This document shows, piece by piece, positions 2,251 through 28,415 of a DNA stretch of 29,398 bases. How positions within the stretch are numbered: the stretch's first letter is position 1; each line of letters opens with the position of its first letter. Below the pieces are notes generated by a model. The model saw nothing but the letters and a program-made list of their open reading frames with translations, searched no databases and was not told the DNA's origin. The DNA is from a virus, in the IMG/VR virus record IMGVR_UViG_3300030419_003553, positions 1-29,398 of that record; one strand, written 5' to 3'. The position numbers and the translations under genes are program-made.

Positions 2251-2251
2251 T

Positions 2252-10215: not shown

Positions 10216-10221
10216 GATTTT

Positions 10222-11775
10222 TTAGAACTGCAAGATAATTTTGACGTCTTCTTTTTGGGATGAGGACCTTGTTACTGAAGGTCTATTGTCAACAAAAACG
10301 ATGTTTCCAGAATATTTTTTAGATTCTGGTTGGGATACACCTTCTGTAAAACTTTGGCCCAGATAATATGTTCTATTATTTATTTCAGTCGAGAGACCAG
10401 TAAAGGAAGTCTCAATATTTAAAGAAATGTCTCCACCTGTAATTGCTACACTACCTCCACTACCAGGACTAGATGTAAAAGGAAAATCATTATATCCTGT
10501 AGTAGTAACACCGGCTGCACCAGCAAAAGTAAATCCATTGTTAGTTCTATCTTGCCAGTACTTCAGAACACCAGTAGTTTGATCATAAGAAGCTACTCTC
10601 CCAACTGCAGTAGAACCTAAACCTACTGTTTGTAAAATCTTAGCATCTGCTGTAAAACTAGCTGTACTATATCCAATACCAGTTAATTTAAGAGCATATA
10701 AAGCACTTACACTATTACCTTGTAATAATGTAGTAGTACCGTCCTGAAGAGGATTTTCTACAAGACCTACTCTTGCAAATTGATTTCCAGTAATGAAATC
10801 TGGATTTTCACTGTCATTTTCAAATCTAGCATAAACTAAAACATTGAATGCACCCAACTCCCTATAAATGTCTTTACCATGACCACCATCAGGAGGAATA
10901 ATAACATTAAATGTAGGAGCTGTAGTTCCTGTAGGAACACCACCAGCTGCTAAGTCCACTGTTCCATAGGTATATCCTGATCCACCATTAGATACAGTAA
11001 TAGAGTCCACTGTAGAATCATTACTCATAACAATAGTTGCTTCAGCGCCGCTCCCATCTCCTTCAATAGGAACTTTAGTGTAAGTTGCATTAGCAGTACC
11101 TAATCCAACTCCACGACTTCTAATGGTTACAATTTTTAATTGACCACTAGTAGCAGCATTATCTCTAACAGCAGCATCAGTACTATTAGTATCCCAATCT
11201 GTTGGAACAGGAATATAATTAGTTGAATCAAACTTAATAGCTTGGCTTGGTTTAATAGTGTAAAGATATTTCCAAATATAACCGTCCCCAGAACTTCCAG
11301 CTTCTCTAGGTTCTAAATCAGTAAAAGTAGGTTGATCTAAAGATGGACCCCCTTGGAAATCATTTTCTGGCTTAGCATTATTATAAAGACAAATATAAAC
11401 CCTATAATCCTCATTCATTACATAATAATCAGCAAAATAGATGTCAGTGGCGTTTGATGGGTAGGATTGATTATCTCTATTAATATCATTCCTCCACATA
11501 TCGTAAGTAGTACCAGAAGTCCAAGTATTCTTCCTAACTACCTCACTAACATCAGCACTAGCAATCTTCTTCAACGCCAACATAGTATCCCAATACTCAT
11601 TGGATTGATTTAAACTATCCTTTGGTGAAGGAGGGTCTACATCCCAATCTGACTGATAACTAGTAGCATTAGGTAATCCAATCCATGCATAATATGAATT
11701 TTGACTAGACTGAACTCCAGCTACAAAGTTCTTCGCATTCAATATACGAAGTTGATCAGTAATTATTGCCGCCAT
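10222..11775 (-). CDS. gp8: Baseplate wedge protein gp8
   Basis: Baseplate wedge subunit, 517 residues against 334 in T4. The N-terminal half holds the conserved gp8 blocks of marine T4-like phages: ITDQLRILNAKNFVAGVQSS, YYAWIGLPNATSYQSDWDVD, EVVRKNTWTSGTTYDMW, YYVMNEDYRVYICLYNN and SSGDGYIWKYLYTIKPSQAI. The extra length is largely a central insert (about residues 220-300) with a VSNGGSGYTYGTVDLAAGG unit of the GxGY type that recurs across this operon, followed by a return to conserved sequence (HGKDIYRELGAFNVLVYARF). The C-terminus ends VTRSSSQKEDVKIILQF. The gene follows the giant gp7-position gene after 33 bases that contain a CATAAATA late-promoter-like box, and has no evident Shine-Dalgarno. 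Assignment rests on both sequence blocks and position. Confidence 0.88.
   Translation of the reverse strand: MAAIITDQLRILNAKNFVAGVQSSQNSYYAWIGLPNATSYQSDWDVDPPSPKDSLNQSNEYWDTMLALKKIASADVSEVVRKNTWTSGTTYDMWRNDINRDNQSYPSNATDIYFADYYVMNEDYRVYICLYNNAKPENDFQGGPSLDQPTFTDLEPREAGSSGDGYIWKYLYTIKPSQAIKFDSTNYIPVPTDWDTNSTDAAVRDNAATSGQLKIVTIRSRGVGLGTANATYTKVPIEGDGSGAEATIVMSNDSTVDSITVSNGGSGYTYGTVDLAAGGVPTGTTAPTFNVIIPPDGGHGKDIYRELGAFNVLVYARFENDSENPDFITGNQFARVGLVENPLQDGTTTLLQGNSVSALYALKLTGIGYSTASFTADAKILQTVGLGSTAVGRVASYDQTTGVLKYWQDRTNNGFTFAGAAGVTTTGYNDFPFTSSPGSGGSVAITGGDISLNIETSFTGLSTEINNRTYYLGQSFTEGVSQPESKKYSGNIVFVDNRPSVTRSSSQKEDVKIILQF
10970..11015 (-). repeat. GxGY module inserted in gp8
   Basis: This stretch encodes TVSNGGSGYTYGTVDL, one copy of the Gly-Gly-x-Gly-Tyr unit that also occurs in gp14, in the 2587-residue protein and many times in the 4658-residue protein. 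It lies in the part of gp8 that has no counterpart in the shorter T4 protein, so it looks like a shared decoration added to an older core. Limits are approximate. Confidence 0.6.
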
Positions 11776-11794
11776 TGTTTGAAGGGTTTTTTCT

Positions 11795-11802
11795 TATTTA
11801 TG
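11795..11802 (-). promoter_or_regulatory. Putative T4-type late promoter before gp8
   Basis: The minus strand reads CATAAATA, 19 bases before the gp8 ATG and followed by AGAAAAAACC. It is identical to the octamer before gp13 and sits in a gap of the same size (33 bases), while neighbouring junctions have 0-9 bases. It differs by one base from the T4 late box TATAAATA. Confidence 0.6.
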
Positions 11803-11808
11803 AGTTAA

Positions 11809-14800
11809 TTAAGTATAATTTGAATATTTAAGGGGTTTACTCCTAATTACAATTCCAGAAGTAGAAATTCCAGTAACTCCATTCTCACCATAGAAATTAT
11901 AAGTATTTTGAGGATAAGGAGTATCAATATTAATTTTACCCCAACTAAAGTCACCATGAACAAAAGGACTTGCAGTAGAACCAATTCCTGTACCACCAGC
12001 AGTTACAATTCCTGAGCCTACATCATCCACATTAACAAATATTCTCTTAGCCCAAGTGGATACTCCCACAACGGAAGTATCTGTGACTTCAAATACTTCG
12101 AAAGATTGTACTTGATAAACACAATCAGCCCATGTAGTGCCTATTCCAACAGTAGTAGTGCCAGTGGATATTTGACTTGCAAAAGTTTGTCCTATTCCTA
12201 TATCAGTATTAAAGATTGTGAGATAATCACTTGTAGAAATTCCACTAATTGTTATAGCTGTTCCTACATATGTTGCATCTCTCATATAAGAATCAGAAGG
12301 AATATAAAGATCAAAGAAGAATTGATCAAAAGAACCAGTTGTAGTAGTTCCTATCCCAATAACTGTTCCATAATCACCTTCATATCCTCCACTAGAAGAA
12401 ACAGTAAGAGTCTCTCTAATAAGAGAAGGAGGTTCAATAAGAACTTCAGGAACACTAGTAGTAGTATATGCTAAACCAGTGGTAGTTCCACCATAAGAAA
12501 CTGTGAGACTATCCACTACTCCTCCACTTATGGTTGAAGTGGCAGTAGCTCTAGTTGTAGTAGCAGCCCCCACAAGAGAATTAGTTCCTATACCAGATGC
12601 ATTAGCAATGGTAACTACAGGTGCAGAAGCATATCCAGCACCACCCTCAGTTATATCAAGTGAAGAAACTGTTCCTGATGTTGAAACAATTGCAGTTGCT
12701 GCAGCTGCGGTAAGTGTATCTTGAGATTGAATTGAAATAGAATTTTGGAAGGTCAATATTGCAGATTCATTCTGAGAGTCAAATAAAGGTCTAATATCAC
12801 TTACATAGAGATTACTGGTATTAACTCCAACAGATTTTAAAATATATGCTGTTGGGTACATTAAAGGTTCATAATGAATTCTATCTTTTCCTATTGGTTG
12901 ACCATCAACAATCTTATCAACTTCTTGTTTACACCAGTTTACTGGTCTTGTTAGAAGAGTATCAGCTGTAATGCCAGGGCCAGGATAAATGACAGTAGTT
13001 ACAGCATCAATAGTAGTAATGCCTGTTACAACTCTAGAATTTTCATTCAAACCAGCGGATTGACCTCTTGCAGAATCATGATTAATATCCAACAAATCAC
13101 CAGTCTTAACTGTTTCTAAAACATCTGTAAGAACAACATCAACATCACCACTACCTTTATAGAATAGAATCTTACAGGAATCTCCAGCCTTAGGTGCTGT
13201 TGTAAATGTAAGAGTGCTACCCCCATTAAAGATATAAGCTACACCTGGTTCTTGTAAAATATCATTGATAAAGACCAAAAGGACCATATCAATTCTTATT
13301 AAAGAACCTTTCTTAGCTTGAATAGAAATAACATTATCTTCTAACTTTAATCCAAAAGTCTTTGTAACTCCATCAAAACTAGAATGAATTTCATCCAATA
13401 CTTCAAGTGTTCCAACAACCCAACCATTAAACTTATCACGATAAGTTTCTAAGATATTAAGTTGGAACTCATTAAATGTTAGGGATGGATCAGTAGGAAT
13501 TCCAGTAAGACCACCAACAGGAACAGTAAGAATTTCACTATTACCGTAACCAACTCCGGTTTGATCAATACTAAATTCAACTACACTAGATCCTTGGCCA
13601 ACAACTATGTCAACGGTTGCAAATTGTCCACTACCAGAAGCGGAATCTGAACTATATTCTAGAGCAATATTTTCATAACTGTATGGATCATCAATTACCA
13701 CTTCTAAAGGCCATTGTACACTACCACCTCTAGCGTAGAAGTGATCTAGTGTTGAAACTCCTGTATTAACCTCAAACTTCTTAGTATCAATGACACGAAG
13801 AACTTCAGATCCCATAATAGCTGGATCTCTTTCCAAGTTTCTAGGAACTATAAGAACCTTCTGTACTTTTCCACCAGTCTTATAGAAAGTAGGTACAGTA
13901 GAAGTACCGACATTAACTACAAATGTATTAAGACCAACAACACTACTAATTTCTACTCCAGCATAATATGGATCAGGTTTTCTAGGATAGGTGTGAGTAC
14001 TAAGTCCAGAATCTTTACTACATGTAAATGTGAGGGAATCTGTTGCTATCTTAATATTCTCTCCTACTGCTAAACTATGAGAACCTATGGTCATAGTCAT
14101 AATACCAGTAGAAGCTGTGTAATCAGCTGCAGTTGGAACAAAATAAACGAAAGGAGTTGTACCAACATTAAGAGTTACTGTAGTACTTGATGTAGCAGCT
14201 ATAGCAACACTGGTATCATAATAAGGGTCAGTTGATCTAGGATAACTATGTAATGAATTATAATTATCCAGTGAACATCTAAAGTCCAGACCACCATTCC
14301 TCAATTTAACATAAGGTATAGTAGTTCCTCCAGTTGCGGTAGAGAATCCATGAGAAGCACCAATAGTAAGTTCTAAGAATCCAGTAGTACCAGAATAAGT
14401 AGCATCAGTAACTTCTAATTTATTTTCAGTTGTTGTACCTACATTAACTGTAATCTTATTACCACTCACATTAGTAATAGCCAAATCAGTATTATAAGCT
14501 GGATCAGTTTCCCTAGGATATGAATGCTGAGTAGCATAGTTATCCATAGCACAAGTGAATGTGATGGAACTGGTAGCTATTCCAACAGTATTGCTAGTTG
14601 TAGCACTAGTACCACCTTCAATAGTTAAGACTAAATCACCTGTTGATGGATTATAAGTTGCATCAGTTGCAGTTGTTGTACCAACTCCCACCACCGTGAT
14701 ACTTCCCACACCAGCACTTACGAAATTATGAGTATAGTTACCACCACCAATTAATGCTCCAGGTAATGCACTTACAAACTGATGGGTATAAGCCCCTCCA

Positions 14801-17800
14801 GAAATTATTGCACTAGCTGCAGCTCCTACAAAAGTGTGTGTATATTGGTCATTGGCTCCAGCTGTACCAACATCAACTGTAATCTTAGTAGAATCAACTT
14901 CTGTAATAGTGAGGGCGTTATCATATGCGAAATCCCTTCCTCTTGGATAATAATGAGTAGTAACCCCTGAATCTATATCACAGGTCATTCCAATTCCAGT
15001 AAAGATGACATCTGTACCAACTCCCAATCCATGACTACCAGAAGTAGTCACAGTCATCACACCAGTAGTGTAACTATAATCTGCGTTAGTAATAGTCTTA
15101 GGAGCGGAATACTGACAAGTAAATGCTATTCCTGATAATTGAATAGTATCTCCCTGAGACAATCCATGTGGGAGAATTGTAGTAACAGTAGTTACTCCAG
15201 TTACTGATGAATATCCAACATTTATTATATCTCTGGGTTTGTAGAATACTTCTGGATTTGTAATGTTAATAGCTGTAACATGTCCATCAGTAACAGTACA
15301 AGTTCCAATATTTGTAATACTAGCTATTCCTGCACTATAAGTCTGAATACCAACGTTAGGTGTTTGAACTCCTTTTCTATATCCAGCTCCACTATTTCCA
15401 ATACTAATAGAACCAACTGTACCTGATGTTGCAACTATAGCTGATCCTCCAGCACCTATTAAAGGTTGATATCCAAATCCAGCACTAGAACCTACAGAAA
15501 TAATAACACCACCAAGAGGATAATGAGTCTTGTTGGGATCATACCCTTCAGCTACAGTATCTCCTCCAGTAAAGCGAATACTAGAAACTCCAGGATTAGA
15601 TTCAGTGAAAGTATAAGCGGATTCTTGATTCTGGCTCCCTAATGGTTTTTGGAAGATTCCTTTAATTAAGACAATTCCATTAAAAGTAGAGAAACCTGTA
15701 ATATTACTACTATTCTCTGTTAATGTAAATTCTGTAGTAATTCCTGTAAATTGATTAGAAATATCATCAAAAATAGCATTTTCATTATATGCTTGAACAG
15801 TAGTATCTACAGCATTTCTTCTCATAAACACTCTACCTTGGAAGGTAGAGCTAGTAGTAATTCCCACCCAATCCCTATTATCTGGATCCTTAGCATTAGG
15901 ATTAGACAGTGGAACATTTCCATAAGGATGGGAAGAGAATATAACCTTACTATCAACAATATTATATTCCCCACTCATCTTAGTAACACCTATTCCAGAA
16001 TTATGAGATACCATTGTGGTTCCCATTTGTCCTCTAAGAACAGTAAGTTGACTACTACCAGCATATCCTACATGAATAACCTTTGTAATCTCATCACCAA
16101 TCTGAAGCAAATCTCCAGAGAAGAAAGATGTAAGTCCAGTAACTGGTATCTGTTGTTCATAAATGATGCTAGTACTGAGTCCAGTAGTAATGGTAGTAGG
16201 TGATAAAGGAGATTGAATCATATTATCAACCGCCATCAATGCCCTTTGATTAGGGTTAATAGTACTAAGTACATGAGAATTTCCAATACCAACATCATCA
16301 ATATCAAATACTGTTGGTATCTTAGCTAAAGCTTTAGTTGGTGTGTCAGTAAACTTAAGATATCCTTCTCCAGATTTCACAACATAAAGAGTAGTAGGAA
16401 GTTTAGTAGTTACACCAAGACCACTCACATTGGTTGATGCTATACTAATTGCATTAGTAGTAGAACCAGAGGCATCATTGTTACTTCCCTCATAACTATA
16501 TGTTACCTTTTCACCAGTTACAAAGAAATGAGTTCCTATAGCAACAGTATTACTACCAGTTGTATTAGCTATAGAAGTGCTAGAACCATCAAATACTTTT
16601 CTGAAAATAGGAGTGTTATCATGCTTCAATAGGAAGGTATCTTCCATCTGAGCCTGAGTCCCTGTAAACAATCCACTCTTACTTGTAACAGCAGCGTTGT
16701 TTAAATTAATTTTGGTACTAAATGAATTCTCATCATATAAGAATTCATCGATCTTAAAGACTCTTACTTGAACATCAATACTAGCATTAGGAGTATAAAC
16801 AAGCTCCAGATAATCACCAGTAGATGTGATTCCTACAGTACCAATACCACCAACTACATTACCAACTGTACCAAATTCAATCCATGATTCATTTGTAGAA
16901 GAATTTAAGGCACAAACCTCAGTTAGTTCATAATTATCATTAGTCGTATCATGAATAGAAAGAAGATAATAAGCTGCTGCAGTAGCACCAGTTCCAACTC
17001 TATAATGTGAAGTTATTCCAACTGCAGTTGGTGATGTAGTGGATCCAATAGCTGTATATGCTGAAGAGACTATCGCTGTGCTCATGGATGTAGTCCCTAT
17101 TCCAGTAGCAGTAGTAGCAACTCCAACTATTGAAACATTAGAAGTAAGAGCAGAAGTAACAGAAGAATATGGAATGAAATCTATATTAACATTACTTCCA
17201 CTAATATAAGAATTATAAGTTCCAAATCCTAAATGAGAACCTGAGGATGTATATAAATTCCCATACTCAGTAATATAAACCTCAGTACCATCATGAACAT
17301 AATTGATTTGACTTCCTGAGAAATTACTATCAGAATCTTCAAGTTGAAGTAAAACAGTAGCACCTCTCATAGTTATAGGAATCTCAGCCACAGTAGTTGT
17401 GGTTCCAGCAGCAACACTTTCATGTGAACTAGTAATACTACTAATAGTACCTACTGTCTGAATTCCTGTTGATGTAGAATCACTTAAAATATTAAAGGCA
17501 ACAGATGATATTTGATATTCATTATAGGTAGACTTATGAGGATAGAATTCTAACTCCCAACCAGTACTAGTAGGTCCATAATCAAAACTACCTAATTCAG
17601 GATATGTTGTGTCATCAAAGTTATCTGCAATAGGATAACTAGACTGACTAGCATATTGGTTTATATACCCAACATTATTATGTTGAAGAACATTTACCAA
17701 TCCAAATTGTCTTTCATCTGTATATGTTATATCTCTTACTAGAACAAATATTTTATTATACTTTTGATTATCATCATAAGTAGCAACAGCAGAGAATTTT

Positions 17801-20800
17801 TCACCATTACTGCTACTATCAAAGTCTATACTAATATCATCAATACTTAATACTCTATTTCCTACAGATTGATAGTAATCAGTAAGAATCTTATTCTCAA
17901 AGAATATCTCATCAGAATAAAGTTTTCCACCAAGATCAATAGTTCCTTCAGTAACAAGATCAAAATCATAGAAGCAATGAAGACTTGCTTCCCCAACAAT
18001 ATCAGTCAGAGTTTCAATATCACCTTCAGCTTGCTCTACTTTTGCCTCAGCTGTTCCAATTATCTGTAAATCTGCATATCTATCAAAACCTGCAGTATGA
18101 GTAAGTGTATTTACAGGATCATCCCAATCCTTTAAAGGAATTTCAGACTGAAGAGAATAAGAGAAATTCTGATAATATTCATTATTTGGAAGTCTCTGTA
18201 AACTATCATTTAAGAAACCAGTATCTCTTTGCCAACCACCAATAAAGGTAGCACCAGCTCCTGTTTTAATTTCTGAGTTAAAGTTAACTTTACTTCTAAC
18301 TATAGCCTGAGCTTGAGAAACTTTTCCTTTAATCTTATCACCTGCTTTAATTTCTTTATTAACTGAAACTTTTAATTGTCCAATACGAGGATCCCAATGT
18401 TCGATCTCTCCTTGATTAACTCCAACAAGTATAGCGTTTTGAGGAGTAATTACTGCTGCTTCATTCTTTAAGAAATCATTTGGTATAAGTTGAGGATCAA
18501 ATAGAGGCATATCCCTTACAGGAATAGCTCTACCACGAGAATTAGAATAATCTACTGTACCAGGAACTTGGCCATCAAGTAGAAGACCATCTAAACTATA
18601 TTCAATATATGCTCCAGTTCCTCCTATCTGACCTTCTGCAGCTGTCAATGGGAAATAAGTATATCCATACTCAGTTGCACTGTTAGTTTCATTTGTAGGA
18701 TAATTGGAAGAATTATAACCCTTACCAGTAGTTCCAATACCTACACTAAGATTTTCTATTAAAACTCCTTCTCCAACAGCAAAATGGAAATCATCAGCAT
18801 CACTAAAAGTAGCACCTAAATTAATCTTTACTGTCTTGGTTGCTTCAGTCCATTCAACTGTAGAAATTGAAATTCCATTATTATTGTTTATAGGAACTAT
18901 TCTAGGAGTAATATCATACATCCCAGTAGTATTCTTGAGGATAGTAACTTCTTCATCACCCAACTTATATTCCAAATCAATTCCATCAATTTTCCTCTTA
19001 GTAAATCCATCAACTACAACTAAATCAGGAGCACTAATATAATTAACACCTCCAGAAGTAATACCAATACGATCAAAAGAAGTTAAAGATTCTACCTCTA
19101 CAATTTCAGGGAGATTAGCTACAACCTTTAACGTCTTATCACTAGGATAATTCCAACCAATTCCATTAGCATTAAATTTAGTACCTGTAATTTTTCCAAT
19201 ATTAGTACTTTCAGCAAATAGAATAGCATCAGTTCCAATCCCACTTATTACTGATGAAATACCTGGAAGAGACTGATATCCAAATCCACTATCAATTACT
19301 TTAATTTTGGAAATAGATCCATAAGCAGAAGATGAATTAGTTTCATAAGTAGAAGAAGCAGTCGTGGAGGTATATCCAGAAACAAGAGGAGCTGAAGGGA
19401 CAATATAAGTAAAAGTATTAACCCCTACTGGAGTAACATTATATTGACCAGAATAAACAACTTTTGTTAAATTAATTTGATTATAAGAATCTACATCTTT
19501 ATCAATTATAAGTTCTTTCTTGATATCAGGAATATCACTTATATTAGTTAAATTAAATTTATACCACAGATTTAAAGGAGTATTATCATCTACAGTAAGA
19601 GTTAGATGTGCATTAGCATCAATTCCAGCCCTTCCTGTGGTAGTAACAGCAAATCCAACTTCTTTACCATTAGTGAGATAATCTTCTCCAAACTCCCTAT
19701 CCTCATAAAGAGCCATTTTAAAGGCTGACTTTACACCATTTGCGAATGAAAGGGAAGAATCTGAAAGATCAAATTTAAGAGTATTATTTCTCTGAAGTTC
19801 AACTAAAGGATTAATCTTAGATAAAGTTCCATCTGATATACTACTAGTAATATCCACAAATGATGGATTAGCCGCAGTTAATTGAACCTTTTCTGTAACT
19901 AATCTAATTTTATCCTTACTATAAGGGAAAACATAATATAATCCTTCATTAGTAAGTCCACCACCAGTTGTACCTGTGTGAATAACTTTATCACCTTTTT
20001 TGAAGGTATGATCATTAAAGGTAAGAGTATTATAAGAAACATTAGCGCCAGTAGAAGTAAATCCTACAGGATCAAATACTATTCTCCTATTATAATCATC
20101 ATACTTAACAGTAACAGTAGTAACCCCTGTAGGTTTAACTGTCATCCAAATTTTATCATTTAAAGTTAACCCATGAGTAGAGCCAGTTGAAACAGTGACA
20201 ATAGTCCTATCTACATCCCCAGTAACTACATCAGTAATAGCTGTTTTAAAACTATGAGTATCTCCAGCACCAACATTAGTGAAATATAAGAGACCTGTGG
20301 AAGTTCCAATTCCAACAAAATTAGGAGCACCAACACTAAGAGCAGTACCAACAAGAGTTGTAGTAGTTCCTATACCAACTTTATTAGTAGCTATTCCTAT
20401 AAAGTTGTCACCTAAAGGAGCAACATAGAAAGTGTCTCCTGCATTTGAGAGGGTAGTAGTGCCAATTCCAGCAACTCCATCCCAAACAACCATAGATGTT
20501 CCACCATTAACATTATAATAAACTTGATCATTTAAACTCAATCCATGTCCTGGAATATAAATGTGTTGTAATGGGACAAAAACATTGGTATTACCTGTTC
20601 CCGGATTAGAGAATACAAGAGTAACTCCAGAACCAACATTATCGTTATAATAAGTACCTAGTCCTACAGATTCTGATGGATCAAAATATAACTCATTATT
20701 AAGAGGTAAAGATTTAGTAGTCTTAATAGTACCAATTTCTATTGTAAATTTCTTAGGATCTTCAAACAGAACTTGTCCTTCGAAATATGATACTCCCATT

Positions 20801-23800
20801 CCAGCAGTTCCATTCTGTTCTCTTAAAACACGAATTCTTTGCTGTTCCTTATCGATATTAAGAACTTTGACTTTTTCAGTTCCTATTCCCAAAATATCAT
20901 TAGGACGAATATCTGGATATTCTAAATTACCACTAACACCAAAATAAGTTACTATACCAGTAGTAGCAGTACTTGCAACTCCTACATTTAAAACAAAAGT
21001 ATCTGAACTAACTCCAATATTATAAGTTCCATCAAATCCATTAAAGTATTCGGAAAGTCCATTTACCCTTAAAGTTTGATCATTTGTAAAGTTATGAGGA
21101 GAAGAAGCAAAACCAATAAATTCATTTTTATTTTTATGTGCTCCAAATTCAACAAATTCAATAGATGTAGTGGCAGCTGATATATTAACAATATCTTTCC
21201 CTAATATTCTATCAACCTTGGCATTTGCATCAGTACCCTTAGTTCCTTCATTATTAAATGCTATCCTATCTTTATATTGATAATTAGATCCTCCGGTTAG
21301 AATTCCAACCCCTTCTATATTACCTACAGTAGCAGCAGTAATGTCTACACTTTGCTTTCTAATTTTATTAGAATTGAAGAAATAATTATATCTGCTCCTA
21401 TTATTATTTGTATGATAATCTGTAGTGTTTCTAAACCATCCACCTGCTTCTATATCATAATCAGTCTGATTGGAGCTATATTTAAGATTAAAGCTATTTG
21501 GTTCTGATGCAAATGTATCACCAATAACATATGGGAAAGTTGGTTTTTTCAGTCTAACAAAAGGACCAGTTGATGCTGTGTCTTCTGATATAGTAGTAAA
21601 ATAAGCATAAACTCCTTTTGGAAAATCAGGAGTTACACAGAATCTTCCATTATGTTCATCTAGATCACCAGTTCCCGTAAAAAGATGATCTTCAACAAAG
21701 AATCCCATCGGATAGGTTGTTATCGGAGGTCTTTGTTCCAAATCATCAAAGGATAATTCCTTATATCCAGACTTCATCTGTTTGGTATTACCACCTTCAA
21801 TAGAACTATACCCATAATTACCATAAATTGGATGACCATCATATGCATATCCCAGAATAGGAGAATGATGATTAGCAGCACTTGGAGAATCTTCTTGACC
21901 CCTCGATGTCATCTTTAAATCTGGATCTCCATAATGAACTTGGGGATAAATCGCTTCCTCCCAATTCGCAGAAATCATATAAGAACTTTCTCTTAATGGT
22001 CTAGGAGCATAAAGAGATCCATACTCTAAAGAAGAATTATTATTATTTTGAACTAAAATTCCATCATCATCTCCAATAAGACCTATGGAATTAGCATTAT
22101 TATAATATTTTTCAAAATTATTAATTCTCCAGGGTTTAATTCTAAGATCAACTTTAGCCTCAGAACCAGCAGCTTTTACCTCAATTGATATTTCACCTGC
22201 AGTATATCCTACTCCACCATTAATAATATTAACCGAAGTAATTACTCCTCCAGTTATAATTGGAGTAATTTGTGCATTTTTTCCATTAGGATCTTTAATA
22301 ATTAAATCTGGAGGAGAATTATACCCAGATCCACCCGCTTGAACAACAATATTAGTAATTTTGCCATTAGAAATAATAGGTTCAAGTTGAGCCTTTTCTC
22401 CACTCTCTAAAGTAACCTCTGGTTGTCTATTAAAGTTAACAACTTCAGAAGCACCATAACCTACTCCACCAGCAGTTATATCAATAGAATCAATAGATCC
22501 TCTAAAGATTGGTTGAACCTTACATCTGAAATCTTGACCACTCGTAGTTTGAACTCCTATTACACCCTTAACTTCTAATGTAATTGGCTCATAATTAAAA
22601 GAACCTCCTCCAGTAGATGCAAGAGAAACAAGTGTATCCAGAGAAGAAACTGAACTTAAAGAGAAAACATTATCATCAATCTTTTTCACATAATAATTTT
22701 GAGATTCAGAAAGTCCAGAAACAGAAGATGTACCTGCAGTATACTGAACAATCTCTCCACTCAAATATCCATGATTTGTAATAGTAATCCTATTGTTAGA
22801 TGTATTAATACCAGCACTAGGTATAGTTTTTTGATTATTCTTATATCCAGAACCAGAATCTGTTACAACAATACTAGAAACTATATTCTTTCTTGATGAT
22901 GACTTAATATACTGAACTCCTGTTCCATAACCTGACAAATATACTGTATTAATTCCCAATCTAGCATCAGTTGCTGTGGGGTGCAATCTAATAGTACTAT
23001 TATCTACTTTTCCAACATAATAATATGCATTAGTAGTTAATCCTGTTATTCCAGATAAATCTCTTGAATCATAAATTACTTTTTCTTCTGAATCAAATTT
23101 ATGAAAAGTACTAAAACCAATAGTACTGGAATTTACACCTAAAAGAACTTCTGCTTGAGTTTTTCCTATTCCTATAGTTCCCTCAGCATTAAAAGGCATC
23201 GAATGAATTGCTGGAGATATATTAGGTCTTGCAACAGCGCCAGATCCACTACCTCCCTTAATTTCAATAGTAGGAGTACCAACATAATCAAAACCAGAAT
23301 CAATAATATCAACTCTTTCTAATTGACCACTAACTGAACAAGTACCCGTTGCTCCTGTGCCTACAGAATCCTCTAGATTTAAAATAGGAGGATTTATAAC
23401 ATCATAATTTTTACCACCTCCACTAACAACACAGGATTGAATATCTCCATAATAAACAATATCAGTTGATTTATAATTAACAATTTCTACGCCATTATTC
23501 AATATACCAACAAATCCAGGGTCGGTAATATAATTTCCAGATTTAGTAGATGGAGAAGATACTTCTCTATAAATTGATTGAGCCTCAAAGTTTTTTCCAT
23601 AAAAATCATAATAAATGAATTTATTATTAGTTACTGTTCCAGATACAGTAATAAATTTATCCGCAAAAAGATTAGCTCTACTTCTAGCAAGTTTAATTTG
23701 ACTACTACTTACATTCTTAACATAATAAACACCTTCTGCTAGTTTTCCACTCTCACTATCAAGCTGACTCTTTACTTGCGTTCTAGTATTAGATGTTCCA

Positions 23801-25785
23801 TAATCAGTGATAGTTTCATATTCCGCTTCATACCAAACAGCATCTCCAGTCAAGAATCCATGATTATTTGAAGCTCTAGGATTTGTAGATGATCCTTGAG
23901 TTACCGTAAGAGTGTCTGTAGAAGGAATAATGCCATTAAGATATACTGTCTTATCATAAGGATTAATTTCTTGACTATAATATGTTGGAAGAGAATTTGA
24001 AGCAACTAAAACATCATTATTAAATCTCAAATATGTATTTTGTACGTTTGATGTATAATTCTCTAGGCTAGGATAATCAGAAGAATCCCCCAAAGTAAGA
24101 AGATTATTTAATCTAACATCATCTAATGTAGTATCAATTTCTGAAGTAAATTTAACATCACAACCAGTTAAGGAATGTATTCCAACAACAGTACCTTCTC
24201 CCTTAATAACATTATTAACAGTTAAATTTACCTTATATCCTCTCTTCAAGAATTGTGAATCATAAGTATTGACTTGATAGAGTCTTTCTGACTTATCAAG
24301 TATTTCTATATTCAATACATCCCATTGGGTTTGAATATTAGAATACCAATTAAGTGTAGAAGTATTCTCTGATTCTATCCCTAATGATTTAATCTCAACA
24401 GTATCACCAGGATTATAGAGATAAGCATCATCTTCTAATTCAAAATCCTTTAAAGTAGAAACAATTCTAACTTGAATTTGTTCATCAGTATTAGTTCCCA
24501 CATACGCATAAGAATAATCATCTAAACAAATATCTGTTAAATCACTTAATTGAATTAATTCACTAATACCACTAACATTAAAGAATTGATTTATACTTTT
24601 TCCAGTATAAGCTAAGGAAACTGGATCATCATTAATATCTCTTACGGCAAGTAATCCCGTCTCTGGGAACCCAACAGTAGAATCAACATCAAGAACAGTA
24701 GATCCTATACTAGTTTTACTTAATAGTCTAGTTTTAGGATTAGGTTTAAAATCATCAATAGAAGATCTCTCATCAATAGAATTATCATCTAAACTAATCT
24801 GATAATATTGACTTGCTGTTTTTTGATCTACAACTGCAACAGTAGTAGCTCCTGCTCCTACTTCTGCATCATATATGACTTTTTGTACATTAGAAACAGC
24901 ACCTCTTGCTCCAGTAGATTTTTGAAATAGTGTTAAATTCTTTAAATCTAAAGGATCTCCCTGAACACTCTCTATTACATAATCTCTGGTTATCCTATAA
25001 TCGGCATCAGAAGGACGTATGAGGAAATTACTAGGACGAATTATTTCACAATCCTTCCCATACAAAGCATTAAATAAAATCTTAAAAGAATTATCAGTTC
25101 CCTTTGAACTATAAAAACTCTCTAAATTAAAAATAAAATTTCTCTTATCAATTCCACTATAAAGATTTCTTTCTTCAAATCCTGGAGCAACTTGATTTTT
25201 AAGCTTCTTAAAAAATTCTTGTAAGAAGATAATATTTAAATTATAGATAATTGAGCCTTTTTTATGCTCATTAATTGAAGTTGTTTCAAATACTAGTTGA
25301 TCAGGATTACTAGGATTAATATAAGAAGTAATTCCACTAAATCCTCTACTACAATTTACAAAAGAAGTGCTAGTTTTGGATTCATATTTAATAATTTCAT
25401 CATTTATCTTAATTAGACCATTAGTTTCTGGAAATCCTTCAGTATTACTTCCTTCATTTACAAGATAAAGTACATTATTAGATTCTTCTGTAATATCAGA
25501 AGCAACCGTTGTAGTAATACCAGTTCTTCCATGATTCTCAGTAACAACAGTAGTCGAATTAAAATCAATATCTTCTTTAAGAAGTGTACTATTTGTTAAA
25601 GTACATAATTGATCAACTTTTACATATTGATCAATATTTTGAATCAAATCATAGGATCCACCTTGATTTTCTTGAGAACTATAATACTGCTCTAGAAAAT
25701 CAGAAAGAAGAGGAAAATCCTCCCTAACAAATCTAGGAAGTTGAGTAGCAACAACGTCCTGAAATTTAACTCTATCTACTGCCAT
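11809..25785 (-). CDS. Giant structural protein in the gp7 position, YHYH-like domain
   Basis: A single open frame of 4658 residues, between gp6 and gp8, which is where T4 places gp7 (1032 residues), the baseplate wedge scaffold. I infer a wedge or peripheral baseplate protein; large repeat-rich proteins in this slot are known in T4-like cyanophages. The N-terminus (VATQLPRFVREDFPLLSDFL, residues 12-31) is a compact conserved block. Downstream are many Gly/Thr-rich beta modules: GxGY units (for example near 1100-1200, 2165, 2245, 3465, 4380), HG-x-x-x-GD units (near 640, 1000, 1745, 1870, 3540), IGDEI units (near 125, 3225), a YHYH-like domain near 1280-1400, a tandem YPR repeat near 3565-3960, and a LQEPGVAYIFNGGSTLTF block near 4180-4200. 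There is no signal peptide or membrane segment. It starts 9 bases after gp6 without a Shine-Dalgarno. Structural identity is firm, equivalence to gp7 is by position, and function of the repeats is unknown. Confidence 0.88.
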   Translation of the reverse strand: MAVDRVKFQDVVATQLPRFVREDFPLLSDFLEQYYSSQENQGGSYDLIQNIDQYVKVDQLCTLTNSTLLKEDIDFNSTTVVTENHGRTGITTTVASDITEESNNVLYLVNEGSNTEGFPETNGLIKINDEIIKYESKTSTSFVNCSRGFSGITSYINPSNPDQLVFETTSINEHKKGSIIYNLNIIFLQEFFKKLKNQVAPGFEERNLYSGIDKRNFIFNLESFYSSKGTDNSFKILFNALYGKDCEIIRPSNFLIRPSDADYRITRDYVIESVQGDPLDLKNLTLFQKSTGARGAVSNVQKVIYDAEVGAGATTVAVVDQKTASQYYQISLDDNSIDERSSIDDFKPNPKTRLLSKTSIGSTVLDVDSTVGFPETGLLAVRDINDDPVSLAYTGKSINQFFNVSGISELIQLSDLTDICLDDYSYAYVGTNTDEQIQVRIVSTLKDFELEDDAYLYNPGDTVEIKSLGIESENTSTLNWYSNIQTQWDVLNIEILDKSERLYQVNTYDSQFLKRGYKVNLTVNNVIKGEGTVVGIHSLTGCDVKFTSEIDTTLDDVRLNNLLTLGDSSDYPSLENYTSNVQNTYLRFNNDVLVASNSLPTYYSQEINPYDKTVYLNGIIPSTDTLTVTQGSSTNPRASNNHGFLTGDAVWYEAEYETITDYGTSNTRTQVKSQLDSESGKLAEGVYYVKNVSSSQIKLARSRANLFADKFITVSGTVTNNKFIYYDFYGKNFEAQSIYREVSSPSTKSGNYITDPGFVGILNNGVEIVNYKSTDIVYYGDIQSCVVSGGGKNYDVINPPILNLEDSVGTGATGTCSVSGQLERVDIIDSGFDYVGTPTIEIKGGSGSGAVARPNISPAIHSMPFNAEGTIGIGKTQAEVLLGVNSSTIGFSTFHKFDSEEKVIYDSRDLSGITGLTTNAYYYVGKVDNSTIRLHPTATDARLGINTVYLSGYGTGVQYIKSSSRKNIVSSIVVTDSGSGYKNNQKTIPSAGINTSNNRITITNHGYLSGEIVQYTAGTSSVSGLSESQNYYVKKIDDNVFSLSSVSSLDTLVSLASTGGGSFNYEPITLEVKGVIGVQTTSGQDFRCKVQPIFRGSIDSIDITAGGVGYGASEVVNFNRQPEVTLESGEKAQLEPIISNGKITNIVVQAGGSGYNSPPDLIIKDPNGKNAQITPIITGGVITSVNIINGGVGYTAGEISIEVKAAGSEAKVDLRIKPWRINNFEKYYNNANSIGLIGDDDGILVQNNNNSSLEYGSLYAPRPLRESSYMISANWEEAIYPQVHYGDPDLKMTSRGQEDSPSAANHHSPILGYAYDGHPIYGNYGYSSIEGGNTKQMKSGYKELSFDDLEQRPPITTYPMGFFVEDHLFTGTGDLDEHNGRFCVTPDFPKGVYAYFTTISEDTASTGPFVRLKKPTFPYVIGDTFASEPNSFNLKYSSNQTDYDIEAGGWFRNTTDYHTNNNRSRYNYFFNSNKIRKQSVDITAATVGNIEGVGILTGGSNYQYKDRIAFNNEGTKGTDANAKVDRILGKDIVNISAATTSIEFVEFGAHKNKNEFIGFASSPHNFTNDQTLRVNGLSEYFNGFDGTYNIGVSSDTFVLNVGVASTATTGIVTYFGVSGNLEYPDIRPNDILGIGTEKVKVLNIDKEQQRIRVLREQNGTAGMGVSYFEGQVLFEDPKKFTIEIGTIKTTKSLPLNNELYFDPSESVGLGTYYNDNVGSGVTLVFSNPGTGNTNVFVPLQHIYIPGHGLSLNDQVYYNVNGGTSMVVWDGVAGIGTTTLSNAGDTFYVAPLGDNFIGIATNKVGIGTTTTLVGTALSVGAPNFVGIGTSTGLLYFTNVGAGDTHSFKTAITDVVTGDVDRTIVTVSTGSTHGLTLNDKIWMTVKPTGVTTVTVKYDDYNRRIVFDPVGFTSTGANVSYNTLTFNDHTFKKGDKVIHTGTTGGGLTNEGLYYVFPYSKDKIRLVTEKVQLTAANPSFVDITSSISDGTLSKINPLVELQRNNTLKFDLSDSSLSFANGVKSAFKMALYEDREFGEDYLTNGKEVGFAVTTTGRAGIDANAHLTLTVDDNTPLNLWYKFNLTNISDIPDIKKELIIDKDVDSYNQINLTKVVYSGQYNVTPVGVNTFTYIVPSAPLVSGYTSTTASSTYETNSSSAYGSISKIKVIDSGFGYQSLPGISSVISGIGTDAILFAESTNIGKITGTKFNANGIGWNYPSDKTLKVVANLPEIVEVESLTSFDRIGITSGGVNYISAPDLVVVDGFTKRKIDGIDLEYKLGDEEVTILKNTTGMYDITPRIVPINNNNGISISTVEWTEATKTVKINLGATFSDADDFHFAVGEGVLIENLSVGIGTTGKGYNSSNYPTNETNSATEYGYTYFPLTAAEGQIGGTGAYIEYSLDGLLLDGQVPGTVDYSNSRGRAIPVRDMPLFDPQLIPNDFLKNEAAVITPQNAILVGVNQGEIEHWDPRIGQLKVSVNKEIKAGDKIKGKVSQAQAIVRSKVNFNSEIKTGAGATFIGGWQRDTGFLNDSLQRLPNNEYYQNFSYSLQSEIPLKDWDDPVNTLTHTAGFDRYADLQIIGTAEAKVEQAEGDIETLTDIVGEASLHCFYDFDLVTEGTIDLGGKLYSDEIFFENKILTDYYQSVGNRVLSIDDISIDFDSSSNGEKFSAVATYDDNQKYNKIFVLVRDITYTDERQFGLVNVLQHNNVGYINQYASQSSYPIADNFDDTTYPELGSFDYGPTSTGWELEFYPHKSTYNEYQISSVAFNILSDSTSTGIQTVGTISSITSSHESVAAGTTTTVAEIPITMRGATVLLQLEDSDSNFSGSQINYVHDGTEVYITEYGNLYTSSGSHLGFGTYNSYISGSNVNIDFIPYSSVTSALTSNVSIVGVATTATGIGTTSMSTAIVSSAYTAIGSTTSPTAVGITSHYRVGTGATAAAYYLLSIHDTTNDNYELTEVCALNSSTNESWIEFGTVGNVVGGIGTVGITSTGDYLELVYTPNASIDVQVRVFKIDEFLYDENSFSTKINLNNAAVTSKSGLFTGTQAQMEDTFLLKHDNTPIFRKVFDGSSTSIANTTGSNTVAIGTHFFVTGEKVTYSYEGSNNDASGSTTNAISIASTNVSGLGVTTKLPTTLYVVKSGEGYLKFTDTPTKALAKIPTVFDIDDVGIGNSHVLSTINPNQRALMAVDNMIQSPLSPTTITTGLSTSIIYEQQIPVTGLTSFFSGDLLQIGDEITKVIHVGYAGSSQLTVLRGQMGTTMVSHNSGIGVTKMSGEYNIVDSKVIFSSHPYGNVPLSNPNAKDPDNRDWVGITTSSTFQGRVFMRRNAVDTTVQAYNENAIFDDISNQFTGITTEFTLTENSSNITGFSTFNGIVLIKGIFQKPLGSQNQESAYTFTESNPGVSSIRFTGGDTVAEGYDPNKTHYPLGGVIISVGSSAGFGYQPLIGAGGSAIVATSGTVGSISIGNSGAGYRKGVQTPNVGIQTYSAGIASITNIGTCTVTDGHVTAINITNPEVFYKPRDIINVGYSSVTGVTTVTTILPHGLSQGDTIQLSGIAFTCQYSAPKTITNADYSYTTGVMTVTTSGSHGLGVGTDVIFTGIGMTCDIDSGVTTHYYPRGRDFAYDNALTITEVDSTKITVDVGTAGANDQYTHTFVGAAASAIISGGAYTHQFVSALPGALIGGGNYTHNFVSAGVGSITVVGVGTTTATDATYNPSTGDLVLTIEGGTSATTSNTVGIATSSITFTCAMDNYATQHSYPRETDPAYNTDLAITNVSGNKITVNVGTTTENKLEVTDATYSGTTGFLELTIGASHGFSTATGGTTIPYVKLRNGGLDFRCSLDNYNSLHSYPRSTDPYYDTSVAIAATSSTTVTLNVGTTPFVYFVPTAADYTASTGIMTMTIGSHSLAVGENIKIATDSLTFTCSKDSGLSTHTYPRKPDPYYAGVEISSVVGLNTFVVNVGTSTVPTFYKTGGKVQKVLIVPRNLERDPAIMGSEVLRVIDTKKFEVNTGVSTLDHFYARGGSVQWPLEVVIDDPYSYENIALEYSSDSASGSGQFATVDIVVGQGSSVVEFSIDQTGVGYGNSEILTVPVGGLTGIPTDPSLTFNEFQLNILETYRDKFNGWVVGTLEVLDEIHSSFDGVTKTFGLKLEDNVISIQAKKGSLIRIDMVLLVFINDILQEPGVAYIFNGGSTLTFTTAPKAGDSCKILFYKGSGDVDVVLTDVLETVKTGDLLDINHDSARGQSAGLNENSRVVTGITTIDAVTTVIYPGPGITADTLLTRPVNWCKQEVDKIVDGQPIGKDRIHYEPLMYPTAYILKSVGVNTSNLYVSDIRPLFDSQNESAILTFQNSISIQSQDTLTAAAATAIVSTSGTVSSLDITEGGAGYASAPVVTIANASGIGTNSLVGAATTTRATATSTISGGVVDSLTVSYGGTTTGLAYTTTSVPEVLIEPPSLIRETLTVSSSGGYEGDYGTVIGIGTTTTGSFDQFFFDLYIPSDSYMRDATYVGTAITISGISTSDYLTIFNTDIGIGQTFASQISTGTTTVGIGTTWADCVYQVQSFEVFEVTDTSVVGVSTWAKRIFVNVDDVGSGIVTAGGTGIGSTASPFVHGDFSWGKINIDTPYPQNTYNFYGENGVTGISTSGIVIRSKPLKYSNYT
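12600..12665 (-). repeat. GxGY module near the C-terminus of the giant protein
   Basis: Encodes ITEGGAGYASAPVVTIAN (about residues 4375-4395), the most canonical GxGY copy in the window: Gly-Gly-x-Gly-Tyr, then a short loop ending in a proline and a beta strand. A diverged copy follows at once (VSYGGTTTGLAYTTTSVPEV). Limits are approximate. Confidence 0.6.
13905..15090 (-). repeat. Tandem protein repeat with cysteine and YPR motif, four copies
   Basis: Four consecutive units of about 77-84 residues share the pattern YxxxTGxxxxTI ... FTCxxD ... HxYPRxxDPxY ... VNVGT. Their key lines are MTCDIDSGVTTHYYPRGRD (near 14935-14990), FTCAMDNYATQHSYPRETD (near 14505-14560), FRCSLDNYNSLHSYPRSTD (near 14230-14285) and FTCSKDSGLSTHTYPRKPD (near 13970-14030). 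Unit ends fall near 14858, 14433, 14158 and 13905, so spacing is roughly 253 and 275 bases, stretched to about 425 where a short YTH repeat is inserted. A fifth, truncated unit with FTCQYSAPKTITN precedes the array near 15095-15215. I know this motif as recurring in marine phage structural proteins; its role is not established. One cysteine per unit is conserved, in an otherwise cysteine-poor protein. Confidence 0.8.
14719..14844 (-). repeat. Triple 18-residue YTHxFV repeat, 54-base period
   Basis: The three anchor hexapeptides are YTHTFV (14827-14844), YTHQFV (14773-14790) and YTHNFV (14719-14736). They begin exactly 54 bases apart, so the unit is 18 residues (consensus YTHxFVSAxxGAxIxGGx). 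The array sits between the first and second YPR units and accounts for the wider spacing there. The exact period suggests recent tandem duplication or slippage, although codons differ between copies. Confidence 0.85.
21590..21955 (-). other. YHYH-like domain inside the giant protein
   Basis: This part encodes residues about 1277-1398 of the 4658-residue protein. It contains QVHYGDPDLKMTSRGQ, then HHSPILGYAYDGHPIYGNYG, then RPPITTYPMGFFVEDHLF, GDLDEHNGRFCVTPDFP and KGVYAYFTTI. The line HSPILGYAYDGHPIYG is the hallmark of the YHYH family found in bacterial and phage proteins of unknown function. The clustered His, Asp and Glu residues (HH, DGH, EDH, DEHNGRF) are an arrangement that could bind metal. 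I did not see the literal YHYH tetrapeptide in this stretch, so the family name is given with some caution. Confidence 0.75.
22180..22500 (-). repeat. Three close GxGY modules in the giant protein
   Basis: Three copies of Gly-Gly-x-Gly-Tyr are coded at 22456-22470 (ITAGGVGYGASEVVNF), 22321-22335 (VQAGGSGYNSPPDLIIKD) and 22204-22218 (INGGVGYTAGEISIEVK), so they begin 135 and 117 bases apart (45 and 39 residues). Each is followed by a short loop and a beta strand. This is the densest run of the module and looks like a small beta-repeat domain just before the YHYH-like domain. Confidence 0.75.
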
Positions 25786-25794: not shown

Positions 25795-27696
25795 TTATCT
25801 TGTAAGAGATGTGGTTGAATAACTTGAAGTTACGGTATAGTTACTACCAGAAACATCATTTCCAGAAGCTATTTCATCAGGAACCATGGTAATTGATGTA
25901 TTATTAGAATCTAACTGTAAATAGAGATCTTGCAATCCAATTACATCATTAGAATAAGGAGCCATGGAGACTTCAATAAGAGAAGAATCACCACTAGTCA
26001 CATTTGTAGAAATAATATTTAGTGGATTTAATTTAATCTCACCTTTAACATAATCAATAGTTCCAATACTACTCTTTATAACAACTGGTTCAGTAGGAGA
26101 ATTCAATTTAAATAAGAAAATAGTACCTTTTAGAAGAGTTGAATCTGGAAGATCTGCCATGTATACAGTATCACTGATACCACTCACTTTAAATCCAGAA
26201 GATTTAATATTATATCCATCTTCACTTCCAACATAAAAACGATTACCATAACAAAGTTCATAATCAGCAAATTTATTCAATTCTACTTTTAAATCCCTTC
26301 TCATGTTAATAAAGGTAATGTTGGAAGTAATTGAAGAATTACTTTCATCAATAATTTTAAGGAATTTACTGTATTTGAAGCGTGCCCCAAACTTATTTAA
26401 CTCACTTGAATCGGAGTACTTTATGACATTATCTGTGACAATGGTTTTTACAAAATCAGAATTAGGAGCTAAATTTGTATTATAATAAGCAGTAATTCTT
26501 GGTTCGAGATAGAGATATTTTAAATCAACAATTTCTGGGTTAATACCAGCTACAGAATATTTTTTAAGTTCATTTTTAATGTTATTTTTAACAGCATCAG
26601 GGATATAAACACCATTATGGGGTTTAATACTAATAAAAACTCTACCAAAAGAAGGAGGAGTTAATTGTTCACCCCCATAAGCAGAAACTGACTCAGCTTC
26701 TGGATAAATTGTTGGAATTAGAGCTTCATAATCTGCTGTTGTCACTGCTCTATTCTGAGAAGCATAAATTCTAGGAGCATATCTCTTTACAGAATCAATA
26801 CTTTCAATTGCTTTTCCACCATAAGAATATTGCTCTGTAGTAAGAAGAGAAACTCCTGAAGTTACCGAAGTCCCATCATTAGCCTGAAGTCTACCTGCAT
26901 AAACGAATTTATTAATATTATTTCCATCTACACCCTTAGAAACAATATAATCAACTTCTATAACTTGATCATCTTGTAATTTTTCTCCAAATACACCATC
27001 TCCAAACAGAAGTTCATACCTTTCATTATCAGTTTCTTGAATAAAGTAGATTTTAGACTTATTATCTACTCCAACAAAACTGTTAAATTGCTTAAATTGA
27101 TGAGTAACAGTAGAATTTGCGTTATTTCTTACTACTACATTGATTAATGAGGTATCAATTCCACTATTAGGAAGAATATATCTTTGATAAGGAGTTCTAG
27201 AACTTACAGTAAAGGATTGTTTGATATAAGATCCTTCATAAATGTCGATATTGTCAAATATTGCTGTTCCATCTGATCTTACAGGAGTGGTAATATCATT
27301 AGGAATGGAAAATGAAAAAGTTTCTTTTCCAAAGGTTTGACTAGAAACTGCAACTATACCTTTTCTAAGTGTTAATGAAGATATTGATGTATCAGCACTT
27401 ACAATGAAAGTAATGGTAGCTTTAGCTGATTTCCTTGACCTTGGAACATACCCTATATTCCTTGCCAGAGACACCACGTTCTCCCTGAGAGTGGCGGAAT
27501 CAATGAACACCTCATTAGTAGCCATGTTGGCGTTATATGAGGTAATATAAGTATTATATGCTAATGTGTCTATTATAGTCGATAAATTAGACCCTTCAAA
27601 ATCATAATCAGTAAAATTAGAGTTTGATCGTAGATAATCTATAATCGAAACTTTTATTTGGTCAAAATCGACGTTGCTAAAATTTACTAAAGGCAT
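25795..27696 (-). CDS. gp6: Baseplate wedge protein gp6 (baseplate J-like)
   Basis: Baseplate wedge subunit that forms the iris-like ring joining wedges around the hub; 633 residues, close to 660 in T4. The N-terminus (PLVNFSNVDFDQIKVSIIDY, then LAYNTYITSYNANMATNEVF and ARNIGYVPRSRKSA, residues 1-90) is the conserved gp6/baseplate J opening. The motif LLFGDGVFGEKLQDDQVIEV (about 227-247) is the typical FGDGxFG signature of this superfamily, and TTADYEALIPTIYPEAESV (about 315-335) is the next conserved block. The C-terminal part contains VTSNITFINMRRDLKVE-like sequence and ends in a Ser/Thr-rich tail. The ATG follows the gp25 stop with no gap (TAAATG), a strong sign of coupled translation. gp25-gp6 pairing is usual in T4-like marine phages. 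No Gly-rich inserts are seen, unlike in gp8 and gp14. Confidence 0.92.
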   Translation of the reverse strand: MPLVNFSNVDFDQIKVSIIDYLRSNSNFTDYDFEGSNLSTIIDTLAYNTYITSYNANMATNEVFIDSATLRENVVSLARNIGYVPRSRKSAKATITFIVSADTSISSLTLRKGIVAVSSQTFGKETFSFSIPNDITTPVRSDGTAIFDNIDIYEGSYIKQSFTVSSRTPYQRYILPNSGIDTSLINVVVRNNANSTVTHQFKQFNSFVGVDNKSKIYFIQETDNERYELLFGDGVFGEKLQDDQVIEVDYIVSKGVDGNNINKFVYAGRLQANDGTSVTSGVSLLTTEQYSYGGKAIESIDSVKRYAPRIYASQNRAVTTADYEALIPTIYPEAESVSAYGGEQLTPPSFGRVFISIKPHNGVYIPDAVKNNIKNELKKYSVAGINPEIVDLKYLYLEPRITAYYNTNLAPNSDFVKTIVTDNVIKYSDSSELNKFGARFKYSKFLKIIDESNSSITSNITFINMRRDLKVELNKFADYELCYGNRFYVGSEDGYNIKSSGFKVSGISDTVYMADLPDSTLLKGTIFLFKLNSPTEPVVIKSSIGTIDYVKGEIKLNPLNIISTNVTSGDSSLIEVSMAPYSNDVIGLQDLYLQLDSNNTSITMVPDEIASGNDVSGSNYTVTSSYSTTSLTR

Positions 27697-28098
27697 TTAC
27701 CTAGTGGGCAGTAACGCAAAGGTGAGTTCTTGTTGTGGCACATCCATGCCAACAATAATATAATTAAGAGTTACATGAAATTCATTCCTATCGAATTCAG
27801 GTTTTACACTAACATCCTCTAATTTAATACGAGGTTCATAATTTTCTAGTGTATTTTCAATTTCACTCTTAATTGCTGATGCAGTTAGGTCATCAAAGTT
27901 CTCAAATAGTAGATTATAAACATTTGACCCCAATGCAGGAGCAAAAGGTCGTTCACCAGGTATAGTAAGAACCAAATTTCTAACAGAACGAGCTATAGCA
28001 GTCTCATTTTTAAGCGCAATAAGGTCCGAATTAAGAGGATTAGATTGGAAAGAGGCACTTATGTCCTTAAATCCTTGACTAACTAACTGAACTGGCAC
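27697..28098 (-). CDS. gp25: Baseplate wedge protein gp25, GTG start
   Basis: Baseplate wedge component of the gp25/TssE family, 133 residues (T4: 132), which binds the sheath-initiating face of the baseplate with gp6. Diagnostic parts are LIALKNETAIARSVRNLVLT (26-45), the PGERPFAPALGSNV segment (47-60), and EPRI (88-91), the conserved EPR motif of this family. The start is GTG at 28096-28098: a TAA stop lies immediately upstream in frame, and the conserved SQGFKDISASF segment begins within the first residues, so no ATG start can replace it without losing conserved sequence. No Shine-Dalgarno is visible. An AATAAATA box 22 bases upstream could be a late promoter. The gene is joined to gp6 without a gap. 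Confidence 0.92.
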   Translation of the reverse strand: MPVQLVSQGFKDISASFQSNPLNSDLIALKNETAIARSVRNLVLTIPGERPFAPALGSNVYNLLFENFDDLTASAIKSEIENTLENYEPRIKLEDVSVKPEFDRNEFHVTLNYIIVGMDVPQQELTFALLPTR

Positions 28099-28120
28099 TT
28101 AATTACACTAATACTGCTGT

Positions 28121-28128
28121 TATTTATT
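28121..28128 (-). promoter_or_regulatory. Possible late promoter before gp25
   Basis: The minus strand reads AATAAATA, 22 bases before the gp25 GTG and overlapping the stop codon of the 58-codon gene. It shares seven of eight bases with both the T4 late box TATAAATA and the CATAAATA boxes before gp8 and gp13, and the spacing to the start codon is similar (19, 21 and 22 bases). AT-rich sequence makes chance matches likely, so confidence is limited. Confidence 0.4.
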
Positions 28129-28303
28129 ACACTAACGGTAGCGTTCTTGAGTCAAACTCAAAGAGTGGTGTCGAATCCTTCTTTTTATCAGTAAAATCCT
28201 CTACGGATGGTAATTCTTCAAATATTTCAGTCTCTTTTAGAGATTTCCGGGACGGAGTTAGTCTATCGTTACTAATTTCGCGGAGAAATTCGTCGTTTTT
28301 CAT
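28127..28303 (-). CDS. Hypothetical protein, 58 residues
   Basis: Not recognised. I read it by hand: ATG at 28301-28303, stop TAA at 28127-28129. The product begins MKNDEFLREISNDRLTPSRK and ends LFEFDSRTLPLV. It is highly charged (many Lys, Glu, Asp), has no cysteine, no membrane segment and no obvious globular core, so it may be disordered. Support for a real gene: it fills most of the space between an intrinsic terminator and gp25, runs in the same direction as its neighbours, and its stop sits 28 bases before the gp25 start. It is the first gene after the terminator, so it may lead the gp25-gp6 transcript. A GGTAAATA box lies 23 bases before its ATG. Only a weak purine run (AAAAAAAG) precedes the start. 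Confidence 0.6.
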   Translation of the reverse strand: MKNDEFLREISNDRLTPSRKSLKETEIFEELPSVEDFTDKKKDSTPLFEFDSRTLPLV

Positions 28304-28326
28304 CTTTTTTTACACTCTTTACACCC

Positions 28327-28334
28327 TATTTACC
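28327..28334 (-). promoter_or_regulatory. Weak late-promoter-like box before the 58-codon gene
   Basis: The minus strand reads GGTAAATA, 23 bases before the ATG at 28303, just after the terminator hairpin. The last six bases match the T4 late box except for its middle context (TAAATA present, first two bases different). Position after a terminator and spacing like the other boxes are the only reasons to list it. Confidence 0.25.
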
Positions 28335-28347
28335 ATGAATTTGCATT

Positions 28348-28376: not shown

Positions 28377-28415
28377 TAATTTTATAAAAAAATCATAAAA
28401 ATTCAATAAAATTCA

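Follow-up and report, generated by a model that had tools for sequence, protein, structure and literature searches.

What does a protein of 4,658 residues do at the gp7 position of a wedge operon, and is it a gp7 at all? The window analysed here, 29,398 bases long, is an IMG/VR record in its entirety and covers part of a larger virus, a T4-like marine phage that belongs to the cyanophage group (Kyanoviridae-like) or is closely related to it. The minus strand holds an open reading frame (11809-25785) that begins with ATG, contains no internal stops and encodes a giant gp7-type baseplate wedge protein with a computed mass of 500.7 kDa and a pI of 4.65; phrog_2885 ('baseplate wedge subunit') matches it with E=0 over residues 4-3826 and over a second stretch. 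Read along the coding strand, the gene order is gp25, gp6, the giant, gp8, a VrlC-like protein of 2,587 aa, a 139-aa protein, gp13 and gp14. Three baseplate wedge genes on the same strand, gp25 (27697-28098, 133 aa; PF04965, E=1.1e-16), gp6 (25795-27696, 633 aa; PF21379, E=1.1e-17; phrog_219, E=2.3e-195) and gp8 (10222-11775, 517 aa; PF09215, E=1.7e-13; phrog_438), define the surroundings, and the giant between gp6 and gp8 occupies the gp7 gene position. The stop-free frame of 13,977 bases that a preliminary description had placed in the gp7 slot is thus confirmed by the reading frame and by its neighbours. An assembly artefact joining several genes, which that description had considered, is rejected because closed frames of similar length recur in 23 further IMG/VR contigs (3,992-4,801 aa in relatives of the giant gp7; two of these contigs are identical or near-identical copies of others) and in isolated cyanophages, where the frames of relatives span 3,048-8,573 aa.

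At the margins of the operon, the 139-aa protein (1831-2250) directly before gp13 matches phrog_3304 (L-shaped tail fiber protein assembly). The T4-type late promoter motif is TATAAATA, and AATAAATA, one base removed from it, lies on the minus strand at 28121-28128, about 25 bases ahead of the gp25 start. The minus strand at 28100-28740 is free of ORFs of 80 aa or more and has what appear to be a few short unlisted frames; within it, near 28350-28380, an apparent G+C-rich hairpin is followed by a T run. The frame at 28747-29397, open at the window end, matches phrog_1574 (unknown function) and, weakly, a glycosyltransferase family.

Kinship with gp7 is carried by the N-terminal core, residues 1-260 (25006-25785, minus strand), which is delimited by BLASTP, hhalign, PF23786 and model helices and contains the FYSSKGTDNSFKILFNALYG motif near residues 224-243. 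In BLASTP, residues 205-248 align with T4 gp7 residues 710-758 at 43% identity (E=8e-6). In hhalign, using a profile of relatives, residues 217-355 correspond to T4 gp7 residues 727-829 (E=1.6e-7), and a second comparison of the core with T4 gp7 gave E=3.5e-6. PF23786 (Baseplate_wedge) is matched by all 41 relatives at E<=1, the best value being 8.7e-8 and that of the window protein itself 0.0036, its score falling short of the curated cut-off. Bridging families link the two proteins further: phrog_2885 is matched by the 503-aa protein of Stenotrophomonas phage Ps15 (2.7e-30) and by the short gp7 of BUCT-ZZ01 (6e-24), and T4 gp7 residues 646-759 match phrog_2885, phrog_26741 and phrog_17744. 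These comparisons support a core homologous to that of T4 gp7; kinship of the N-terminal part with gp7, for which the preliminary description had suggested a comparison of residues 1-300 with T4 gp7, is thus supported, and so is its notion of a wedge scaffold that has grown. Direct sequence similarity to T4 gp7 spans only about 50-140 residues. T4 gp7 has a helical domain at 643-689 followed by Pfam domains V and VI, and neither these two domains nor the N-terminal ~640 residues of T4 gp7 were recognised in the giant, where only PF14240 and a weak PF23786 match were found. Because the T4 domain architecture is absent, the giant is a gp7-type homologue and not a T4-type gp7. The shared core lies at ~643-830 of 1,032 residues in T4 and at residues 1-355 in the giant, and since small gp7 forms exist, the two lineages may have grown in opposite directions from a small core, T4 by about 640 residues before it and cyanophages by thousands after it.

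AlphaFold models of residues 1-600 (pLDDT 66, pTM 0.34) and 985-1560 (pLDDT 49, pTM 0.25) are too weak for fold assignment. In the former, core helices are predicted at residues 8-60 and 183-254, and a strand-rich domain at residues 61-182 (25240-25605, minus strand; model strands 66-182) is placed between two helical core parts. Foldseek of this N-terminal model against the PDB returned no match at E<=0.001, T4 gp7 included; matches to lambda tail tip, V-ATPase and antibodies lay above this threshold and were treated as noise, and those in BFVD comprised only cyanophage relatives and other phage proteins. Against PDB chains, phmmer found nothing for the whole giant at E<=1 or for residues 1246-1445 at E<=10, and no solved structure of any giant gp7 was found in this analysis.

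Beyond the core, the preliminary description had taken only the first part of the protein to be conserved, which proved wrong. Residues 1-3500 (15286-25785, minus strand) and the C-terminal region, residues 4030-4658 (11812-13698, minus strand), are colinear with S-SM2, S-B05 and P-TIM68 at roughly 30-60% identity, and about 4,040 residues form a colinear, conserved scaffold. Similarity to the giant cyanophage gp7 proteins of phrog_2885 is colinear over the whole length, and in the comparisons with these three phages and with P-SSM2 it extends from either side up to the one variable block. The description of the remainder as a chain of Gly/Thr-rich modules fared better: the enrichment in Gly, Thr and Ser is real, and modules recur internally, a GxGY module near residues 776-852, 1137-1212, 2105-2200, 3441-3504 and 4357-4425 and an HGL-type module near 632, 883, 995, 1914 and 3074. 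The gp14 of the same phage also matches the GxGY modules (E=1e-7, against a best shuffled-sequence score of 4e-4), as does gp8 weakly. A consistently fast-evolving C-terminal tip was considered and rejected, being suggestive at best: of eight informative close pairs, only three have their greatest divergence in the last ~260 residues. When the close relatives G013-G015 are compared, divergence is clearly higher at residues ~1401-2200 (numbered as in the window protein) than elsewhere, which suggests mosaic exchange inside the gene.

Variation in length is concentrated at one place, a cassette at residues 3501-4029 (13699-15285, minus strand). It consists mostly of repeats of ~85 residues, found at 3521-3558 (partial), 3564-3643, 3705-3787, 3791-3877 and 3885-3964; the repeats are a feature of the protein level, since tandem arrays in the DNA are only short and weak. 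Among 28 complete relatives, two of which are identical or near-identical copies, this insertion site accounts for 97% of the length variance, total length follows cassette length with r=0.987, and length minus cassette is 4,039 +/- 65 aa. Between the equivalents of residues 3500 and 4030 the block measures 24-1,096 aa, and in 18 of the 28 the site is bridged by a linker no longer than 30 residues. The window has 530 aa here, compared with 24 in S-B05, 115 in S-SM2 and P-TIM68, where the block lacks recognisable repeats, and 1,096 in P-SSM2. Mapped on a tree of the relatives' N-terminal parts, the presence of a block of more than 100 aa requires five state changes, four of them forced by well-supported branches, and sister sequences can differ at this site (213 aa in G017, 24 aa in G018). 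To judge from a reading of the sequence, a GxGY-like module seems to be interrupted by the block. Cassette repeats were found in 291 cyanophage or marine records. These include other gp7 proteins (P-SSM4, P-RSM6) and giant proteins elsewhere that their depositors label tail fibre or short tail fibre; the 'tail fibre' giants of S-CAM4 (4,057 aa) and Sf-CH1b (3,473 aa) share the ~85-residue repeats of the cassette but lie at other genome places than the gp7 slot. In P-RSM6 (1-12664), whose gp7 slot is filled by a protein of 8,573 aa, cassette repeats were matched at 16 places in the genome. A tentative suggestion is that the cassette is a swappable, length-variable spacer of tail-fibre-type repeats at one loop of the wedge scaffold, where gain or loss of repeats might alter, in all wedges at once, how far they reach or how they contact the host, and leave the scaffold unchanged.

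The probable reading of the whole protein is a gp7 wedge core with a long modular arm that has taken over the outer baseplate and carries a length-variable, fibre-like cassette. In T4, gp7 is monomeric and present in six copies, and gp7 and gp8 form a platform for gp6 (PMC3004832). By analogy, residues ~1-260 of the giant, with homology reaching to ~355, would be the core that joins gp6 to form the wedge, and the other ~3,700 conserved residues would leave it C-terminally, as beta-rich modules strung together in one long chain. Most likely this arm would build each wedge's share of the middle and outer baseplate and take on the tasks of T4 gp10 and gp11 and, in many cyanophages, those of gp9 as well; its length would be tuned at the one loop (~3501-4029) by gain and loss of fibre-like repeats. 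The gp11 found in T4 was found in none of six cyanophage genomes, and the gp9/10 N-domain, present twice in T4, was matched once, over a short stretch directly behind gp7, in three of the six. T4 gp9-gp12, of 31.0, 66.2, 23.7 and 55.3 kDa, are present in 18 copies each (PMC3004832), from which about 3.2 MDa is computed, and six giant chains, if six copies are assumed, would exceed six T4 gp7 by about 2.3 MDa; this mass balance is an argument of plausibility only. The fibre-shared repeats, the absence of gp11 and the reduced gp9/gp10 are also consistent with an arm that, as the preliminary description envisaged, forms an external fibre or shell and adds host contact, which might be made by the cassette and the C-terminus.

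An arm of purely architectural function, which stiffens or enlarges the baseplate or links the wedges and makes no host contact, would retain the gp7-type scaffold and is rather unlikely. Conservation is uniform over most of the length, unlike that of a typical receptor-binding protein, and the GxGY modules are shared by two proteins without a receptor-binding role, gp8 and gp14; against this, the cassette repeats are common to proteins labelled tail fibres, and the C-terminal end is divergent in the three close pairs mentioned above.

It is improbable that the giant is a polyprotein from which post-translational cutting releases a small gp7 and, separately, fibre proteins. Relatives of only 503-607 aa illustrate that a short gp7 is able to occupy the slot, but the colinear single frame is kept in all 28 complete relatives. 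The slot protein of S-CREM2 (ORF122, 1,937 aa), which belongs to another cluster and is less than half as long as the window giant, was detected in the virion with 91 unique peptides and 27.2% coverage (PMC10665884); mass spectrometry lists a single protein there, but cuts cannot be placed at 27% coverage. The giant itself would likewise be expected in the virion.

Within the arm, residues 1300-1401 (21583-21888, minus strand) match the C-terminal half of the YHYH domain (PF14240, E=1.2e-23). In jumbo phages this domain is predicted to be a metal-dependent hydrolase acting on the cell wall, a prediction based on three histidines and one aspartate (PMC7824862), and the giant could by extension be a tail-borne enzyme of this kind. 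The strength of the match, the presence of the partial domain inside the giant protein of seven of seven cyanophages tested and the invariance of H1307, D1316, D1366 and D1376 would fit such a role, which is nevertheless highly improbable, as only profile positions 86-184 of 193 are covered and a single invariant histidine lies in the matched part. The window protein does not contain the full domain with its motif; no YHYH motif was seen upstream of the partial domain in gp7, and the motif lies in the profile half missing from the gp7 copies, judged from the 532-aa protein just after the giant in P-RSM6, which has a fuller domain with QYHYH. The sequence 'GVYAYF' (1391-1396) was rejected as a degenerate motif, for the fuller P-RSM6 domain holds both YHYH and YAYF. 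Because only half of the domain is present, the motif half is missing and one invariant histidine stands in place of the predicted three, the partial domain probably serves a structural or binding role, not that of a working enzyme.

The second giant of the wedge operon, the VrlC-like protein (2452-10215, minus strand; phrog_358, E=0; DUF4815, PF16075, E=1.1e-50), is syntenic with S-SM2 VrlC. It shares a short module with the giant gp7: the strand-rich domain at residues 61-182 carries NDEIIKY...CSRGFSG, for which hhalign finds a weak counterpart in VrlC (giant 121-168 against VrlC 2201-2246, E=2e-4, probability 46). VrlC has been proposed as the gp7 substitute in pelagi- and cyanomyophages, in which T4 gp7 was reported absent (PMC7029224), and a corresponding reading of the giant as a separate adhesin is scarcely tenable given the gp7 core found in it, the lack of a match between VrlC and T4 gp7 (hhalign E=0.42, best BLAST 0.24) and the short gp7-type protein that adjoins VrlC in Ps15. 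The present results argue against the published view, which is not supported because VrlC lacks similarity to gp7.

Giant gp7s rank with the largest proteins that abundant marine phages encode and are an already known type, of which the window protein is a further case. A search with residues 1-600 gave 467 matching phage records (E<=1e-5), most of them from Synechococcus and Prochlorococcus phages and many labelled 'baseplate wedge initiator' or 'subunit', in agreement with the preliminary statement that large slot proteins are known in T4-like cyanophages. Proteins in the slot after gp6 span 503 to 8,573 aa: Stenotrophomonas phage Ps15 has 503 aa, Synechococcus phage BUCT-ZZ01 607, Methylophilales phage Melnitz 896, Escherichia phage T4 1,032, Ah1 1,163, K566 1,164, S-PM2 3,048, ACG-2014e 3,495, S-B05 4,024, S-SM2 4,156, P-TIM68 4,307, MED4-213 4,458, P-SSM2 5,195, P-SSM4 7,312 and P-RSM6 8,573. 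The window's 4,658 aa are mid-range among giant gp7s, and the exceptional size attributed to the protein is not borne out, P-SSM2, P-SSM4 and P-RSM6 all being larger. The comparison locates the core, delineates a colinear scaffold of ~4,040 residues, and adds one insertion site holding fibre-type repeats as well as a partial YHYH domain that is limited here to giants. It yields testable statements: which residues make up the wedge core, which the conserved arm, and that length in this subfamily varies almost exclusively at one site, which fibre-type repeats fill. T4 gp7 shares with the giant a homologous core and the gp6-gp7-gp8 order, but its core follows ~640 residues that are absent from the giant. 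The short gp7s of Ps15, BUCT-ZZ01 and Melnitz resemble the giant in that the core is N-terminal and the gene is placed after gp6, yet they lack its thousands of extra residues; the YHYH domain is absent from these three and from T4. The giant gp7s of the Kyanoviridae (S-SM2, S-B05, P-TIM68, P-SSM2) share with the window protein the slot, the colinearity, the partial YHYH domain and the insertion site; for the named phages listed, identity over the first 600 residues is ~48% at best.
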